DNA from: Anaeromyxobacter paludicola
GTDB taxonomy: Bacteria; Myxococcota; Myxococcia; Myxococcales; Anaeromyxobacteraceae
Assembly (NCBI RefSeq): GCF_023169965.1
Contig: NZ_AP025592.1
Span: forward strand, 1,240,001 to 1,304,000
Reading direction: 5' to 3'
DNA length: 64,000 nucleotides
Shown here: piece by piece, positions 54,204-62,464 of the stretch
Layout: the number at the start of each line of letters is the position of its first letter
How positions within the stretch are numbered: position 1 is the stretch's first letter
Translations under genes and position numbers: made by a program
Notes under the pieces: generated by a model
What the model saw: the letters and a program-made list of their open reading frames with translations, nothing else
What the model was told of the DNA's origin: nothing
The model's database searches: none

Positions 54204-54569
54204 GTGACCGCCGCCCCCACCGTCTCCGAGCTCGTCGAGGGCGCGACCCATGGCGCCCGCCTCGAAGGGGCCTCCCGGGTGGCCGCCGCGGCCGGCGACG
54301 GCCGCCAGGTCCGCCTCGGGGTCTGGCTCGACGGTCGCGGGGGAGTCTCCCGGGCCGGGTTCCAGTCCACTTCGTGCGCCGCCCTCATCGCCTACGCGGA
54401 GCGGGCCTGCCAGCTCCTCGAGCGCGGGCGCCACCCCCGCGAGCTGCCGGCGGAGGCGCTCCGCGACGCGGTGCGCGGCGTCCACCCGGCCCACCGCGCC
54501 CGCGCCGAGCTCGTCGCCCGCGCCCTCGCCGACCTCGCCGCCCCACCCCAGCCCGGAGCAGAGCCATGA
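54204..54569 (+). CDS. Degenerate NifU/IscU-like scaffold protein
   Basis: 121 aa, GTG start. The segment AGFQSTSCAALIAYAERACQ aligns with the FKTFGCGSAIASS-type block of NifU/IscU scaffolds, giving the middle cluster cysteine (C58). The first scaffold Cys is missing and the third position reads GVHPAH, so at most one of three cluster ligands remains; C69 is extra. It may carry sulfur rather than an Fe-S cluster. Its TGA overlaps the ATG of the DsrE-like gene (ATGA), implying a joint role. Confidence 0.6.
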   Translation: MTAAPTVSELVEGATHGARLEGASRVAAAAGDGRQVRLGVWLDGRGGVSRAGFQSTSCAALIAYAERACQLLERGRHPRELPAEALRDAVRGVHPAHRARAELVARALADLAAPPQPGAEP

Positions 54570-54898
54570 ACGTCGCCTACGTCTTCACCACCCCTGGCGC
54601 CTCCTTCATCCTCGAGAAGATGATCGTCCCGCAGCTCGAGGAGGGGCGGCACGGCGCGAACGTGGTCGGGATGTTCTTCTTCTTCGACAACAACTACCTG
54701 CTGGTGCGCGGCAACCCCACCGGCGAGCGGCTCCACGCGCTCGCGAAGCAGCGGGGGATGCTGCTCATGGGCTGCGACCAGTGCTGCTACCAGCGCGAGA
54801 TCGCCGACCGGCTCTTCGAGGGGATCCCCATCGGCTGCTTCCCCGATCTCTACCAGGCGCTCGCCGGCGCCCAGGTGGACCAGGTCATCACGCTGTAG
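54566..54898 (+). CDS. DsrE-like sulfur-carrier protein with CxxCC motif
   Basis: 110 aa. The fold is DsrE/TusD-like: MNVAYVFTTPGASFILEKMI, VVGMFFFFDNNYLLV, LLMGCDQCCYQREIA, GIPIGCFPDLYQAL. Cysteines are C70, C73, C74 and C91, with C-D-Q-C-C as the most reactive-looking cluster; DsrE-type proteins bind sulfur as persulfide. It resembles the SaoD-type DsrE proteins as I recall them, but I cannot check. It is coupled to a NifU-like gene and converges on serine acetyltransferase, so a sulfur-relay role is plausible. Confidence 0.75.
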   Translation: MNVAYVFTTPGASFILEKMIVPQLEEGRHGANVVGMFFFFDNNYLLVRGNPTGERLHALAKQRGMLLMGCDQCCYQREIADRLFEGIPIGCFPDLYQALAGAQVDQVITL

Positions 54899-54908
54899 CG
54901 GCGGCGGC

Positions 54909-55826
54909 TCAGATCCCGGCGCCGTACTCGAAGCGCGACTCCCGGTTCTCCGCCTGCGTCACCCGGCTCCCCGGCGGCACGCTCTGGGTCACCCAGACGT
55001 TGCCGCCGATCGAGGAGCCCTTGCCGATGGTGATGCGCCCGAGGATGGTCGCGCCCGAGTAGATCACCACGTCGTCCTCGACGATGGGGTGCCGGTCGAT
55101 CCCCTTGATCGGGTTGCCGTGCTCGTCGAGCGGGAAGCTCTTCGCGCCGAGCGTCACCCCCTGGTAGAGCCGCACCCGGGCCCCGATCCGGCTGGTCTCG
55201 CCGATCACCACGCCCGTCCCGTGGTCGATGAAGAACCGCTCGCCGATGCTGGCGCCGGGGTGGATGTCGATCCCGGTGAGGCTGTGGGCGTGCTCGGTGA
55301 TCATGCGCGGGATGAGCGGCACGCCGAGCACGTGGAGCTCGTGCGCGATGCGCTGGTTCGTCACCGCGAAGATGCCCGGGTAGCTGAAGATCGCCTCGTC
55401 GCGGCTCTTGAGCGCCGGGTCGCCCTCGTAGGCGGCCTCGACGTCGGAGGCCACCCGCCGGCGCACCTCGGGCAGCCGGCTCATGAAGGCGCGCGTCACC
55501 GCGTCGGCGCGGTGGGTGCAGTGCTCGCAGGTCTCGAAGTCGTGCCGCTCGGCGAAGGCGATGCCTCGCCGCACCTGCTCCTGCAGCTCGCGGAGCGCGC
55601 GGTCGAGCGTGGCGCCGACGTAGAAGTGCAGGCTCTCGTCGTGCAGGTCGGGCCGACCGAAGTAGCCGGGGAAGAAGACGGCGCGCAGCGCCTCCACCGA
55701 CTGCACCACGGCGTCGCGGGACGGCAGCACCCGCCGGCCGCCGTTGCCCGGCTGCAGCGGCAGCCCGGGGAGCGGAGCGCAGAGCTCCTCGACGATGGGC
55801 TCGATGGCGCTCCGGGTCGATCGCAT
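54909..55826 (-). CDS. Serine O-acetyltransferase, EpsC type
   Basis: 305 aa. The left-handed beta-helix begins at GIDIHPGASIGERFFIDHG, then TGVVIGETSRIGARVRLYQG, HPIVEDDVVIYSGATILG and SIGGNVWV. An N-terminal helical domain is larger than in CysE (E. coli 273 aa) and contains FETCEHCTHRADAV. The enzyme makes O-acetylserine for cysteine synthesis, with cysteine feedback common in the family. Convergent with the DsrE-like gene and divergent from the motor operon. Confidence 0.9.
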   Translation of the reverse strand: MRSTRSAIEPIVEELCAPLPGLPLQPGNGGRRVLPSRDAVVQSVEALRAVFFPGYFGRPDLHDESLHFYVGATLDRALRELQEQVRRGIAFAERHDFETCEHCTHRADAVTRAFMSRLPEVRRRVASDVEAAYEGDPALKSRDEAIFSYPGIFAVTNQRIAHELHVLGVPLIPRMITEHAHSLTGIDIHPGASIGERFFIDHGTGVVIGETSRIGARVRLYQGVTLGAKSFPLDEHGNPIKGIDRHPIVEDDVVIYSGATILGRITIGKGSSIGGNVWVTQSVPPGSRVTQAENRESRFEYGAGI

Positions 55827-55991: not shown

Positions 55992-57467
55992 ATGCACCGA
56001 CTCGCTCGAACCGTTGCCCTCGCCGTTGCGGCGCTTCTTGCTTTACCGGCCGCCGCCGGTCAAGGCGATCGCATCGCCGAGGTGTACGCCGCCCGCGTGC
56101 AGCTCCAGAAGCAGCTCTCCAACTGGATGGAGGAGCGGCTCCAGCCCATGGCCGTCCCGCATGAGGTGTATGCGGCGGTGCAGGTCGAGCTGCGCGGCGA
56201 GGTCCGGCAGATCGTCCAGAAGGACGGCGAGCCGGACGGCGAGATGAAGATCGGCTCGCACAAGGCGATGACCCTTCCGGGGCTCGGCACCATCGACAAG
56301 CCGCTCACCGGCGTGGCCGCCCCGGACATCTCGGTGAAGCTCCCCGGGCGCAAGAGCGTGGACGTGCGCCGGCAGCTCGAGACGCAGGTCGAGCGGATCG
56401 GCGTGACGCTGTTCGTGGACAAGGACATGCCGGCCGGGCAGCGGGAGAAGCTGAAGGAGGTGGCCACCGAGCTCGCCGGGCTCGACGCCTCGCGCGGCGA
56501 CGCCCTCACCATCAGCGAGCTCCCGCCCAAGGCCGCCGCCTCGCGCCCCGCGCAGGGCGGCGGCTCGAGCCTGCCGGGCAGCCTGCTCCTCATCTGCGGG
56601 ACCGTGGTGCTCGCCACGATCATCCTCTCGTTCGGCCTCGTCGCGGGCCGGGCCGCCCAGGCCGGCCAGAACCGGATCACCATGGAGGACAAGCGGGGCG
56701 CGGACGAGCCCTCCCCCGCCGACGCGGCCGCGGGCGAGGAGCCCGGGGCGGTGTCGCTCGCGCAGGCGGCGGTGCTCGACGAGGACGGCACGCGCGCCTT
56801 CGCGTTCCTGCGCGGCGCCCGGGCCGAGGAGATCGCGGAGCTGGTGGGCGCCCTCGAGCCGGACGTGGCCGCGGCGGTCCTCGACCAGGTCGGCCTCGAT
56901 CAGGAAGCGGTGTCGCGCCTCTTCCAGCGGCTCCCCGCCGAGCGGCAGGTACAGCTCGCGCTGGCGCTGGGCCGGGCCCGCGTGATCCCCCGGACGGCGC
57001 TCCAGGAGATGGAGATCCGGGTGCAGGCGGAGCTGGAGCGGGTCCGCAGCCGGGTGGCGCTCGGCGGCGACCTCCGGCTCGCCGACCTCCTCGCGCAGGC
57101 GCCCGAGGAGGCGCAGCGCGATCTGCTCGACGCGCTGGGCCGGAGCGCGCCGGACCTCGCCCGGGCGGTGCGGCAGCACATGATCCTCTTCGAGGATCTG
57201 GCCCGGCTCGAGGACGCCGTCGTGCGCCGGGTGGTGACGGCGGTCGCGCCGGCCACCGTGGCCACCGCGCTCGTCGGGGCCCCGGAGCCGGTCCGCGACG
57301 CAGTGATGCGCTCCGTCTCGAAGCGCTTCGCCGCCATCCTCGAGGCCGAGGCGCAGGCGGTCGAGGGCAAGCCCGCGACCGACGTCCAGGCCGCCCGCAA
57401 GGCCGTCGAGAGCGCCATCCGCAAGCTCCAGGCCGCGGGGGAGATCCGCCCCCGCGCCGCCGCGTAG
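55992..57467 (+). CDS. FliF(C-terminal)-FliG(M+C) fusion, putative membrane rotor protein
   Basis: 491 aa. A signal peptide (about 1-23, ALAVAALLALPAAAG) leads to a periplasmic part (25-180) like the third ring-building module and collar of FliF: LQKQLSNWMEERLQPMAVP, ERIGVTLFVDKDMPAGQREK and LAGLDASRGDALTISELP match FliF's 'RLSVAVVVD ... LV..A.GFD..RGD' block. A membrane helix spans 196-222 (GSLLLICGTVVLATIILSFG). Residues 268-350 resemble FliG middle domain and 351-485 FliG C domain (MILFEDLARLEDAVVRRVV, MRSVSKRFAAILEAEAQAVE). FliG N domain, which normally grips FliF, is absent, so the fusion replaces that contact. E. coli torque residues are altered: K264 aligns with V, while R281 aligns with R. 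It leads an operon with TPR, MotA and two MotB genes, so it is probably a rotor driven by them. Confidence 0.75.
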   Translation: MHRLARTVALAVAALLALPAAAGQGDRIAEVYAARVQLQKQLSNWMEERLQPMAVPHEVYAAVQVELRGEVRQIVQKDGEPDGEMKIGSHKAMTLPGLGTIDKPLTGVAAPDISVKLPGRKSVDVRRQLETQVERIGVTLFVDKDMPAGQREKLKEVATELAGLDASRGDALTISELPPKAAASRPAQGGGSSLPGSLLLICGTVVLATIILSFGLVAGRAAQAGQNRITMEDKRGADEPSPADAAAGEEPGAVSLAQAAVLDEDGTRAFAFLRGARAEEIAELVGALEPDVAAAVLDQVGLDQEAVSRLFQRLPAERQVQLALALGRARVIPRTALQEMEIRVQAELERVRSRVALGGDLRLADLLAQAPEEAQRDLLDALGRSAPDLARAVRQHMILFEDLARLEDAVVRRVVTAVAPATVATALVGAPEPVRDAVMRSVSKRFAAILEAEAQAVEGKPATDVQAARKAVESAIRKLQAAGEIRPRAAA

Positions 57468-57479
57468 CCCGGGAGCGAC

Positions 57480-58238
57480 ATGAGCCCGCTCGCCCTCGCC
57501 CTCACCCTCGCCCTCGGCGCCGGCCCGGCGCCGCAGGCCGACGTCTTCGAGTTCCTCTCCCCGGGCCACGCCACCAGCCCGCGCGACGGCAGCGCCCCGC
57601 TGGAGTGGCAGGCCGAGGGGGCCGGGCAGGCCCAGCTGCGCCTCTCCCTCGGGCTCCTCAAGGAGCGGAACGAGGCCATCTCCAACGCGGAGATGCTCAC
57701 GCAGGCGCTCATGCAGACGGTGCGCGCCTTCTTCGAGGGCGGCGGCGAGAAGGCCCAGGTGCGCCAGCGGCTCGTCCGGCTCGCGGGGCCGTCGCTCGAC
57801 GAGGTGCGCGAGAGCCTCCTCACGGCGGTGCAGCTCGAGCAGAAGCGGATCACCTGGGTGCAGCGCGCGCTCGACCTCGCCGACACCGAGCAGCCGCTGC
57901 AGGGCGTCGATCGCGACCTCGTGGGCCGGCGCGCCGCCGCGCTCCAGGCCGGCAAGGGGGCCGAGCTGGTGGAGCAGCGGGTGCGCGGCTACCGCAGCCT
58001 CGCCTCCGGGCTCGTCGCCTACATCGACGGCGACGCCCTCTCCGCGCTCGAGAAGATGAAGGCGGCCACCCGCGACACCCCCGAGGTCTCGCTGGCCCAC
58101 GCCTACCTCGGCTCCCTGTACTACCTGTTCCAGCAGCCCGCCTACGCCGCCGCGGAGTGGCGCAAGGCCCTCGAGCTCGACCCCAGGAACACCGCCGTGG
58201 CGGCGGCCCTCAAGGACCACGCCGCGGAGTTCAAGTAA
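57480..58238 (+). CDS. Periplasmic TPR protein of the motor operon
   Basis: 252 aa. A signal-like N-terminus (SPLALALTLALGAGPAPQA) precedes a largely helical protein: LGLLKERNEAISNAEMLTQA, VRESLLTAVQLEQKRITWVQ, and two clear TPR units near the C-terminus (SALEKMKAATRDTPEVSLAH, AAAEWRKALELDPRNTAVA). It is probably exported or membrane-tethered and could link the motor to an outer or periplasmic partner. It lies 12 bases after the rotor gene and 19 before motA. Not known from standard flagellar operons. Confidence 0.7.
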   Translation: MSPLALALTLALGAGPAPQADVFEFLSPGHATSPRDGSAPLEWQAEGAGQAQLRLSLGLLKERNEAISNAEMLTQALMQTVRAFFEGGGEKAQVRQRLVRLAGPSLDEVRESLLTAVQLEQKRITWVQRALDLADTEQPLQGVDRDLVGRRAAALQAGKGAELVEQRVRGYRSLASGLVAYIDGDALSALEKMKAATRDTPEVSLAHAYLGSLYYLFQQPAYAAAEWRKALELDPRNTAVAAALKDHAAEFK

Positions 58239-58257
58239 ACGGAAGGGACCCCCCAGC

Positions 58258-59010
58258 GTGCGCACCACCACCTACCTCGGGCTCGTGCTCGGCATCGCCG
58301 TCGTCTACCTGGCCGTGGTCTTCAAGGGCGGCAACTACACCATCTTCACGAACTACGTGGCCCTGATGATCGCGGTCGGCGGCACCTTCGCCGCCACCAC
58401 GCTCTCCTCGTCGCGGACCACCATCGGCCACGGCATGTCGGCGGTGAGCAAGATGTTCGTCGCCGGCTCGGTGCCGCCGCGCCGGGTGGCCGAGGAGATG
58501 GTGCAGCTCGCCCGCCAGGCCAAGGCGCACGGCGCCTCCTCCATCGACCTCACCCAGCTCCGGCTGCGCGACCCCTTCCTCGTGAAGGGGCTGCAGCTGG
58601 TGGTGGACGGCGTCGAGCCGCAGCGGATCGAGGAGCTCATGCGGCTCGAGTCCGACATCCTCTCGGAGAAGCGGCGCGCCGCCGAGCGCATGTTCCGCCT
58701 CATGGGCACCTACTCCCCGATGTTCGGCCTCGTCGGCACGCTCATCGGCCTCATCCAGATGCTGAAGGGGCTCACCGACCCGCGGGCCATCGGCCAGGGC
58801 ATGTCGGTGGCCCTCATGGCCACCTTCTACGGCGTGCTGCTCGCCGGCCTGTTCTTCCTGCCCCTCGCCGGCAAGGTCCGGACCATGGACCTCGACGAGC
58901 GGCTCGTGCGCGACCAGATCGTCGCCGGCCTCATCGCCATCCGGCTCGGTGAGAACCCGGAGAACGTGCGGGAGACCCTGGAGGTCTTCTCGCAAGAGGC
59001 GCGCGCGTGA
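58258..59010 (+). CDS. MotA-type stator protein
   Basis: 250 aa. Four membrane helices: 5-22, 30-50, 155-175 (MFGLVGTLIGLIQML) and 185-212 (FYGVLLAGLFFLPLAG). The proline-bearing YSPMFGLVGT and the 'LDERLVRDQIVAGLIAI' segment match MotA/PomA. The cytoplasmic loop between helices 2 and 3 carries charges (RIEELMRLESDILSEKRRAA) that contact FliG in flagella. The GTG start has GGAAGGGACC upstream. Ion channel: inferred from MotB partner. Confidence 0.92.
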   Translation: MRTTTYLGLVLGIAVVYLAVVFKGGNYTIFTNYVALMIAVGGTFAATTLSSSRTTIGHGMSAVSKMFVAGSVPPRRVAEEMVQLARQAKAHGASSIDLTQLRLRDPFLVKGLQLVVDGVEPQRIEELMRLESDILSEKRRAAERMFRLMGTYSPMFGLVGTLIGLIQMLKGLTDPRAIGQGMSVALMATFYGVLLAGLFFLPLAGKVRTMDLDERLVRDQIVAGLIAIRLGENPENVRETLEVFSQEARA

Positions 59011-59639
59011 GCCTGCGCCCGCCGCGGCGGCGCGACGTCGAGGAGGGGGACGCGGACAACCCCCTCCACGACGCCACCTGGCTCTACAGCTACGCCGACC
59101 TCATGACGCAGCTCCTCATCTTCTCCATCCTCATGGTGACGGTGGTGGGGCTCAAGGAGTCGCCGGCGGAGGCCCGCGCCGACCCGCGCCAGGCGCAGCT
59201 CGAGCGCACCGTGCGCGACGTCGAGAAGTACGTGGCCGAGAGCAAGTTCCGCGACGCGCTCGCGGTGGACCGGGCCGCCGACCGGCTCGTCATCCGGATG
59301 AAGAGCGCCATCCTCTTCGACCCCGGCCAGGCGAAGCTCACCCCGGCGGCGGAGGAGGTGCTGGGCGGGCTCGTGGCCGTCCTCTCGAAGGTCCCCTCCC
59401 CGCTCCGGGTCGAGGGGCACACCGACGACGTGCCCATCCAGTCCGCCCGCTTCCCCTCCAACTGGGAGCTCTCCACCGCCCGCGCCATCTCGGTGGTCGA
59501 GTACCTGGAGGACCAGGGCGTCGCCAAGGAGCGGCTCTCCGCCTCCGGCTTCGGCGAGTTCCACCCCATCATCGCGAACGACAGCGCCGAGCACCGGGCC
59601 CTCAACCGGCGCGTCGAGATCGTCGTCATCGGAGGCTGA
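59007..59639 (+). CDS. MotB-like protein 1
   Basis: 210 aa. Residues 24-48 form the membrane helix, with D31 in YSYADLMTQLL at the place of the ion-carrying aspartate. Residues 110-205 are an OmpA-type peptidoglycan-binding domain ([40 protein letters not shown]). It should anchor the stator to the wall. The GTG start overlaps the motA stop (GTGA). A second MotB paralogue follows, so mixed MotB pairs are possible. Confidence 0.9.
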   Translation: MSLRPPRRRDVEEGDADNPLHDATWLYSYADLMTQLLIFSILMVTVVGLKESPAEARADPRQAQLERTVRDVEKYVAESKFRDALAVDRAADRLVIRMKSAILFDPGQAKLTPAAEEVLGGLVAVLSKVPSPLRVEGHTDDVPIQSARFPSNWELSTARAISVVEYLEDQGVAKERLSASGFGEFHPIIANDSAEHRALNRRVEIVVIGG

Positions 59640-60320
59640 GTGGCGATCAAGCTGTCGAGGCCGGAGCGGGAGGAGGACGAGGACATCACCTCGTTCTGGC
59701 TCATCACCTACTCCGACATGACGACGCTGCTGCTGGCGTTCTTCCTGCTCATGTTCTCCTTCACGCTGCTCACCGGCAGCCACCAGGAGGAGCTCGTGCA
59801 GGCGCTGAACGTCGTCTCGGCGAACGGCAAGGTGGTGCGCCAGGAGCCGCCGCGCGAGGACCTGGAGCGGGCCGCCCGCGAGATCGCGGCCCAGTTCAAG
59901 GACGAGCACACCTTCGTGGACGCGACCGAGACCGAGGTCACGGTAGGCCTCTCGTCCAACGTGACCTTCGCGAGCGGCGAGGCGGCGCTCACCGACGCCG
60001 GCCGCGCGGCGCTCCTCAAGGCCGGCGCCATCCTGGCGCGGCTGCCCAACGCCGTCCGCGTCGAGGGGCACACCGACGACGTCCCCATGAAGTCGGCCGA
60101 GTTCCCGAGCAACTGGCACCTCTCGGCCGGCCGGGCCCAGAGCGTGGTGCAGCTCCTCGTCGAGGCCGGCGTGGACGCGCGGCGCCTCGAGGTGGTCGGC
60201 TACGGCGAGACCCGGCCCCGGCAGCCGAACGCCACGCCGGAGGGTCGGGCCGCCAACCGCCGCATCGAGCTCAAGCTGGTCCGGTCCGAGTCGCGCGGGA
60301 AGCCGGCGGCGCCCCGCTAG
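59640..60320 (+). CDS. MotB-like protein 2
   Basis: 226 aa. The helix 19-42 ([20 protein letters not shown]) carries D26, again the ion-binding position. A linker with helices (60-110) leads to an OmpA domain ([41 protein letters not shown]). It starts at a GTG directly after the MotB1 stop, with GGAGG just upstream. The two MotB proteins differ widely outside the helix and OmpA block, so they are not a recent duplication. Its stop overlaps the uvrC stop on the other strand. Confidence 0.9.
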
Positions 60321-62464
60321 GCCGTCCCGCGCGGCGCCGCGCCGGCGCCGGCGCCGGCGTCGCCGGGCTCGGGCTCGGGCTCGGGCGCGCCGGCGTCGCC
60401 GTCCGCTCCCGCCGCCTCCGCGGCCAGGGCGGCGTCGATCTCCTCCTCGGAGGCCACGTCGCCCGGCACCTCCGGCTCCGGCGCGCCGCCCGGCGGGTGG
60501 AAGAACTCGTGGACCGCGCGCGCCGCCTTCGCCCCGAAGCCCTCCACCCGCGCGAGCTCCTCCTCGCGCGCCTCCTTCACCTTCCGGAGCGAGCCGAAGT
60601 GGCGCAGGAGCGCCTTCTTGCGCCCGGCGCCCACCCCCGGGATCTCCTCGAGCACGCTCTGGAAGTTGCGGGAGCGCCGCAGCTTGCGGTGGAAGGTGAT
60701 GGCGAACCGGTGGGCCTCGTCGCGCAGCCGGGTGAGGAGGAAGAGCTCGGCCGAGTTCTGCCGCAGCACGAGCGGGTCCTTCCGGTTCGGCAGGAAGACC
60801 CGCTCCGGGCTGCGCGGCGCCTCGGGCACGAAGCCGCGCTCGGCGGCCTCCGCGGCGTCGGCCAGGGCGGCCGCCTCGGGGACGGCGGCGCGCCGCTCCC
60901 GCCGCCGCCCGATGACGCGGCTCGTGCCCATGGTGGCGGCGTCGATGAGGCGGCTCTTCGCGAGGCCGACCATCTCGACGTACGGCGCCCCGGGCACCCC
61001 GGTCGGCTTCACCGGCACCCCGAGGTCGCGGGCGGCGGCCAGCGCCGCGTTGAGCTGCCCCTTGCCGCCGTCGATGACGAGGAGATCGGGGAACGACCCC
61101 TCCGCCAGGCAGCGCCGCAGGCGGCGGGTGATGACCTCGTGCAGCATGGCGAAGTCGTCCTGCCCGGCCACCCCCTTCACCTTGTACCGGCGGTAGTTGG
61201 CCTTGTCGGGCTCGCCGTCCTTCATCGACACGCCGGAGCCCACGGCGAGCGCGCCCTGGAAGGTGGAGATGTCGTAGCACTCCATCCAGCGGGGCGGCCG
61301 GGTGAGGTGCAGGTGGCGCGTCAGCGCGTCGAGCGCCTGCTCCCGCCGCTCGTCCTTCTCGTGCCAGCTCCGGAAGCTCTGGGCGGCGTTGCGCGAGGCG
61401 ACCTCGAGCAGGTCGGCCTTGGCGCCCCGCTGCGGCGAGAGCACCCGCACCCGCCGGCCGCGCCGGTCGGTCAGCACCTCGTCGAGCGCGACCACGTCCT
61501 CGATCTCGACCGGGAGGAGCACCTCCTCCGGCGGCGGGTTCTGGTCGTAGTAGAGCGACACGAAGGACGAGAGCAGCTCCTCGGCCGGGAACTCCTGTCC
61601 CTGGAACGGGTAGGCGCGGCTGTCCTGCAGCTTCCCCTGGCGCATCGAGAGCACCTGGATGACGAGGTCCGGCCCCTCGCGGTAGAGGCCGAAGGCGTCC
61701 CGATCGGCGGCGTCGCCCATGAGCACGCGCTGCTTCTCCAGGCTGCGCTCCACCGCCTGCAGCTGGTCCCGCAGCCGGGCGGCGTCCTCGAAGCGCAGCT
61801 CGCCGGCGAGGTCGGCCATGCGCGCGCGCAGCCTCGGCACGAGCTCGGACTCGCGCCCCTCGAGCAGCTCCACCGCGTCCTCCACCGACTGCCGGTACTC
61901 GTCCGCCGGCACCTCGTACACGCACGGCGCCGGGCAGCGGTGGATCTGGTACAGGATGCACGGCCGCTTGCGGTGCTGGAAGACGTGGTCCGAGCAGGTG
62001 CGCAGCTGGAAGTGCCGGTTCACCACCCGCAGCGTCTCGCGGATGGAGCTCGCGCTCGAGTAGGGCCCGAAGTAGCGCGCCCCGGCGTCGCGGGCCTCGC
62101 GGGCGCGGCGGACCTCGAGGCGCGGGTAGGCGTGCCGCTCGTCGAGCTTGAGGACGATGAAGTCCTTGTCGTCGCGCAGCCGCACGTTGAAGCGGGGCTG
62201 GTGCCGCTTGATGAGCTCGTTCTCGAGGAGCACCGCCTCCTTCTCGGAGCGGGTGACGATCACGTCGAGGTCGCCCAGCAGGTCGTCGAGCAGCGAGACG
62301 AACGCCCGGTCGTCGCCTCGCCCGGCGTCGAAGTACGAGCGGACGCGCGAGCGGAGGCTCGACGCCTTCCCGACGTAGACCACCTCGCCCTGCCGGTCCT
62401 TCATGAGGTAGCAGCCGGGGTCGGGCGGCAGCTGGTCGAGCTTCTTGCGCAGGGCGGCGTCCAT
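60317..62464 (-). CDS. uvrC: Excinuclease ABC subunit C
   Basis: 715 aa. The GIY-YIG domain opens with [20 protein letters not shown], followed by the [15 protein letters not shown] block, a UVR motif ([17 protein letters not shown]), and the C-terminal nuclease with [37 protein letters not shown] and [15 protein letters not shown]. Two helix-hairpin-helix units ([15 protein letters not shown]) lie near 610. UvrC makes both incisions of nucleotide-excision repair. The C-terminal 65 residues are a Glu/Pro/Ala-rich tail. Longer than E. coli UvrC (610 aa). Confidence 0.95.

Follow-up and report, generated by a model that had tools for sequence, protein, structure and literature searches.

To our knowledge, FliG has been described only in flagella. 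What, then, is a FliG rotor protein doing in an operon of its own, next to its own MotA and MotB stator proteins? This question is raised by a 64,000-nucleotide stretch of the Anaeromyxobacter paludicola genome (G000:C1:1240001-1304000, hereafter the window), in which five genes on the + strand (55992-60320; positions within the window) encode a FliF-FliG fusion, a tetratricopeptide repeat (TPR) protein, a MotA and two MotBs. That this operon is a second system, distinct from the flagellum of the same genome, is well supported. We further propose that it probably encodes a self-contained, switchless, ion-driven rotary motor of the FliG-MotAB type, which would drive a load in the envelope or at the cell surface.

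Results

A fused rotor protein heads a five-gene operon

The five genes overlap or are separated by no more than 20 bases. The first (55992-57467, +) encodes a 491-amino-acid protein that runs from a signal peptide through a domain resembling RBM3, a ring-building domain of FliF (residues 24-180; 56061-56531), and one membrane helix (residues ~199-217 by hydropathy; 56586-56642) to the middle (M) and C-terminal (C) domains of FliG (residues 267-487; 56790-57452). For the FliG end, Pfam FliG_C matches residues 381-485 at 3.8e-21, phmmer against the PDB aligns residues 268-485 with FliG M and C at 4.4e-20, and fold comparison of the predicted structure with VIA-align finds FliG M and C at Z 15.9. 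The Pfam matches to FliG_M (0.038) and YscJ_FliF_C (7.6e-4) both lie under their cut-offs. For residues 24-180, VIA-align ranks FliF RBM3 entries (Z 6.4-7.5) over unrelated folds, and both the YscJ_FliF_C match and a 'GLDASRGD' stretch are in accord with this ranking. We take the residues GLDASRGDALTI to be FliF-like.

The AlphaFold model of the fusion (9 rows) has a mean pLDDT (predicted local distance difference test) of 59, with the FliG part mostly at 70-92. From the N terminus, a signal helix and a second helix are followed by long beta hairpins, another helix, a strand, the membrane helix (197-224) and the FliG helices. The long hairpins, which are modelled at low confidence, resemble the collar insertion of RBM3.

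The second gene (57480-58238, +) encodes a 252-amino-acid protein with an apparent signal peptide and a weak TPR match. It is followed by MotA (250 amino acids; 58258-59010, +; Pfam MotA_ExbB 7.6e-26), MotB1 (210 amino acids; 59007-59639, +) and MotB2 (226 amino acids; 59640-60320, +). Each MotB has an OmpA domain (Pfam, ~1e-20 each), a MotB_plug match (5e-7 and 2.8e-12, respectively) and, in the residue alignment, a channel aspartate (D31 in MotB1, D26 in MotB2).

An earlier note, made from the letters of the window, had given these coordinates, sizes and gene order, and they are right. It had read the first protein as the last FliF ring module, one membrane helix and FliG M and C; Pfam, phmmer and the fold comparison agree on this, and the N-terminal domain of FliG is missing from the fusion as the note had said. 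In the structure comparison that it had set as a check, FliG and FliF folds were both found. Its MotA and two MotBs with D31, D26 and OmpA domains are borne out by Pfam and the alignment.

The stator is of the flagellar class and its predicted contacts with the rotor are conserved

In a MotA tree, the MotA of this operon and that of a nine-gene counterpart described below join the flagellar MotA of G000, apart from 23 TolQ/ExbB-type paralogues from four genomes (100/100); the two types form separate clades. This places the window protein in the flagellar-stator class.

In E. coli, MotA R90 contacts FliG D288/D289 and MotA E98 contacts FliG R281 (PMC12505986). The window fusion has R445 and E453 at FliG R281 and D289, and the window MotA has K89 and D97 at R90 and E98. 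These two E. coli MotA positions were placed on the alignment by way of the E. coli sequence. In the compact, five-gene type, all six fusions have Arg at FliG R281 and Glu at D289, with Ala at D288; in the corresponding MotAs, R90 is Lys in five of five and E98 is Asp in four of five (Asn in G095). The counterpart has Glu-Glu at FliG 288/289 in 11/11 of an order-level set and Arg, Lys or Ser at R281, and its MotA keeps R90 as Arg in 9/9 and E98 in just one of nine. Judged by these alignments, the contact faces of rotor and stator are conserved.

These charges bear on the alternative that survives best, namely that the rotor and stator act as a sensor or envelope stabiliser (sensing load or ions, or pulling in a Tol-Pal-like manner) and not as a mover. 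Such a role would suit an operon that encodes a stator with anchors to peptidoglycan and a TPR protein of the periplasm, and that has no obvious outer-membrane load beside it. However, a FliG torque helix of its own, with its contact charges conserved, speaks for the transfer of torque, and systems of the TolQR/ExbBD type have no FliG, so we consider a sensor or stabiliser unlikely.

The five-gene unit is kept in relatives while its neighbours change

The five-gene unit is found in five relatives, four of the same family (G001, G005, G021 and G023) and one from another family of the order (G095). G001, G021 and G095 have these five genes in this order amid changed surroundings; G023 and G005, the latter at a contig end, show only the covered part of the unit. 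In the window, the operon is flanked by a serine-acetyltransferase-like gene in divergent orientation (54909-55826) and by uvrC in convergent orientation (60317-62464). The upstream acetyltransferase is common to G001 and G000, and otherwise the neighbours differ. The TPR protein is specific to the operon: strong matches (E <1e-55) occur in exactly 6 of 145 genomes, which are those with the operon-type fusion, and the remaining matches are to short, generic TPR stretches. Between two species of the window genus, the ratio of nonsynonymous to synonymous substitution rates (dN/dS) is 0.23-0.39 for all five genes, which indicates purifying selection. A single-protein scan of genome contigs gave 591 pattern matches and no relative, and there was no match among PLSDB plasmids.

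Two side observations were made in these loci. Further upstream in the window, the frame at 54374-54898 (+) seems, by eye, to encode a DsrE-like protein with an internal true start (MNVAYVFTTPGASFILEK...). In G095, a 528-amino-acid protein with a weak FliG_C match (1.2e-4; L094:16684-18270, G095:C84, - strand) sits inside a type III export cluster with FlhA. We rejected it as a member of the present system for this location; it contrasts with the lack of FliG reported for the myxobacterial type III system (PMC3459982).

A nine-gene counterpart has an outer-membrane side

Profile searches found a second type of fusion, of ~545-570 amino acids, in 14 genomes of the order, eight from family f7, which includes soil 'Deltaproteobacteria' metagenome-assembled genomes, and six from family f4, one of which is Archangium lansingense (listed as A. 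lansinium). Beyond the order, in other families of the class or phylum, it occurs in G164, G154 and G161, as well as in G157 when the profile is run on the locus. The genes are ordered as lipoprotein, outer-membrane barrel, 567-amino-acid protein, 387-amino-acid protein, TPR lipoprotein, MotA, one MotB, fusion and lipoprotein, with some loci cut by contig ends and an arrangement that varies outside the order. The barrel matches TIGR04565 at 1.4e-7, under its cut-off. All 17 genomes with a profile-found counterpart fusion carry the 387-amino-acid gene, as do two more (in G053 only as a contig-end fragment), and no genome with the compact operon has it. Because FlhA is absent, along with FliM, from all eight f7 genomes, the counterpart exists without any type III export apparatus.

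The model of the counterpart fusion (pLDDT 73) has a helix-strand-strand-helix-strand domain, a membrane helix, an added helical domain and FliG M and C. VIA-align matches it to FliG at Z 14.0 and its N-terminal domain to FliF RBM3 at Z 9.2-10.6; this domain also matches MamB/MamM and OsmC-like folds at Z 8.8-9.9, so close to the FliF values that the fold match by itself does not settle the identity of the domain. Between compact and counterpart fusions, hhalign aligns the FliG parts at 1.8e-9. In the FliG tree, in which some rows have long branches, compact fusions, counterpart fusions and flagellar FliG form three clades (97/92, 96/95 and 99/97). The compact and nine-gene forms may belong to a single system, or their fusions may have arisen independently. 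Given these two possible origins, we let the counterpart speak for the existence of FliG motors outside flagella, whereas on the load of the window motor it gives no more than a hint.

Pfam and PDB profile searches gave no credible family for the 387-amino-acid, 567-amino-acid and downstream lipoprotein families. The PDB matches of the counterpart lipoprotein are confined to a glycine-rich stretch and look like linkers. No support was found for a VWA (CglB-like) domain in the lipoprotein or for a CsgG/FlgO-like domain in the 387-amino-acid protein, and no match was seen between the profile of the 567-amino-acid protein and the GltC-like TPR protein in a Glt-like cluster.

Two further loci deserve mention. 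L096 (G157:C91:1-16000) has two tandem genes related to the 387-amino-acid family, followed by TPR, MotA, MotB and fusion genes, with the lipoprotein and barrel genes downstream rather than upstream. At L097:6793-8130 (G184:C200), counterpart-type MotA and MotB genes follow a gene for 445 amino acids; the contig also has a weak match to the 387-amino-acid family, which suggests that it likely holds another member of the counterpart system, with its fusion not identified.

The operon lies apart from type III export genes and is separate from the flagellum

The ordinary flagellar locus of G000 lies at ~1189-1235 kb of C1, ~60 kb upstream of the operon, and contains full-length FliF (520 amino acids) and FliG (351 amino acids), MotA, MotB, FliM and FlhA. 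The other FlhA-type gene of this genome, at 2309 kb, is in a second type III locus. No FlhA and no gene of the type III export core lies beside the operon, and none of the genomes read has a flagellar gene next to it. In the loci read, no gene for rod, hook or filament was seen within the operon or around it, although these genes were not searched for family by family. The earlier note had reported export genes absent from the window; this holds locally, with the correction that flagellar export genes, together with stator genes, are present in the genome ~60 kb upstream. The note had also asked whether relatives keep the operon genes inside an ordinary flagellar locus. They do not: the five-gene unit is constant, its neighbours vary, and some hosts lack flagellar FliG and FliM.

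In G005 and G021, which are 100% complete, the only FliG_C is that of the fusion, and G095 has no ordinary flagellar FliG. FliM was not found in G005, G021, G048, G154, G164 or any f7 genome tested. The EHPQ-like FliM-binding motif, which is kept in flagellar FliGs (as EQPQ in most of this group), is lost in both fusion types; this loss accords with the absence of FliM, and a non-switching motor is predicted from it. Our confidence in the gene content of the operon and in its independence is high.

Could the operon instead be a motor module serving the myxobacterial non-flagellar type III secretion system? This system is reported to have no FliG and MotAB of its own (PMC3459982), and FlhA-type genes are present in G000, G001, G005, G021 and G095, the sole operon-type genome without them being 66% complete. 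However, all sequenced Cystobacterineae are reported to have the system (PMC3459982), whereas the operon is in 5 of 24 genomes of the family. Moreover, the operon is not adjacent to secretion genes, and the counterpart occurs in eight genomes free of FlhA. We regard a role in type III secretion as highly improbable. That the operon provides the flagellum of the cell with alternative rotor and stator parts, for instance for another load or ion, is very unlikely despite the complete-looking flagellar locus in G000, since the operon occurs in complete genomes without flagellar FliG or FliM (G005, G021) and also in G095, where an ordinary flagellar FliG is missing, and since it has lost the FliM-binding motif and adjoins no flagellar gene in the genomes read.

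Discussion

How would a self-contained FliG-MotAB-type motor of this kind work? The fusion would be exported via its N-terminal signal, and its RBM3-like domain would form a periplasmic ring that one membrane helix per subunit links directly to a cytoplasmic ring of FliG M and C; with such a covalent join, the FliG N-terminal domain would not be needed. MotA, together with MotB1 and/or MotB2, would constitute the stator, anchored to peptidoglycan by the OmpA domains. Ion flow past D31 or D26 would turn MotA, whose charged loop (K89, D97) would engage the FliG torque helix (R445, E453). With neither FliM binding nor an export gate, the rotor would be expected to lack switching and to turn in one direction only. 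The probable role of the TPR protein is to connect rotor or stator with a periplasmic load. The earlier note had suggested that this could be a rotary motor with a new task, which is also the reading that we favour. We have moderate confidence that this is a rotating motor and low confidence in its task. Because the divergent counterpart is wired to outer-membrane and lipoprotein genes, the load would most likely be an envelope or surface structure, used for gliding-like movement, surface transport or envelope tension.

Several points weigh against this proposal. The N-terminal half of the window fusion is modelled at low confidence, and its RBM3 match, at Z up to 7.5, is within the range reached by unrelated folds. 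FliG D288, one of the contact residues, is Ala in the window fusion. All operon-type genomes of good completeness also carry FlhA-type genes, which keeps a possible tie of this operon type to the myxobacterial type III system in play. No outer-membrane gene lies beside the window operon. Finally, the N-terminal parts of the two fusion types align weakly (hhalign) and, with FliG in three clades, the outer-membrane link of the counterpart may not carry over to the window operon.

Similar to the flagellar motor, the operon has FliF RBM3-like and FliG M and C domains, a flagellar-class MotA, MotBs with channel Asp, plug and OmpA domain, and conserved contact charges. Unlike in the flagellum, FliF and FliG are fused and cut down, with no RBM1-2, first FliF helix or FliG N-terminal domain. 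The operon also lacks the FliM motif and export gate, rod, hook and filament genes, has two MotBs and a TPR protein of its own, and is found in flagellum-free genomes. Engineered FliF-FliG fusions in Salmonella and Vibrio form S-rings through a covalent join (PMC11481574), but these were built in the laboratory from flagellar proteins and sit in a flagellum. The myxobacterial non-flagellar type III system is likewise flagellum-derived and from the same bacterial group, but the operon genes do not lie beside it.

The Agl-Glt machinery of Myxococcus shares with the operon an ion-driven stator with one A and two B subunits (AglQ/AglS there, MotB1/MotB2 here) and TPR proteins, and the counterpart barrel profile matches the GltB-sized outer-membrane protein of a Glt-like cluster in G086 at 5e-9. 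However, Agl-Glt has no FliF/FliG rotor, and its stators are of the TolQ/TolR type without an OmpA domain (PMC3169522), whereas in the MotA tree, where the two classes of stator come apart, the window MotA groups with flagellar MotA, and the window MotBs carry OmpA domains. No GltA/GltB-type barrel lies beside the window operon, and the counterpart locus has a divergent one. Elsewhere in G000, two adjacent TIGR04565 barrels in a Glt-like cluster (G000:C1:2004805-2006030; L130) are a candidate in-trans outer-membrane partner of the window motor. The likeness to the defence system Zorya is confined to MotB, which ZorB profiles match at 1e-25 to 1e-8. We rejected Zorya, as MotA has no ZorA match, none of the five proteins matches another Zorya profile, and a FliF-FliG fusion is present. 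The earlier note had likewise set the system apart from both AglRQS and Zorya.

Our searches of the open-access literature turned up no description of either a naturally occurring FliF-FliG fusion or a non-flagellar FliG system, and the earlier note had known of none. The novelty likely lies in the system as a whole: its parts belong to known families, and its mechanism is likely that of the flagellar motor.

In a 2025 survey, rotor proteins without filament proteins were found in 11% of non-motile species, and it was asked whether they have another function (PMC12199754). The operon is a concrete candidate for such non-flagellar rotor proteins, with a stator of its own. A 2025 stator phylogeny treated the flagellar MotAB class as tied to flagellar motility (PMC12505986); here, MotAB of this class serves a non-flagellar system. 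As a minimal rotor of one fused protein plus stator, it would allow torque to be studied without switch or export, and it offers a case of the flagellar motor reused for another task. It is tempting to speculate, and we do so tentatively, that Myxococcota possess an envelope machine in a class of its own, a FliG rotary motor free of flagellum, switch and export that comes in a five-gene form and a nine-gene form with barrel and lipoproteins, and that may drive surface motility or transport.

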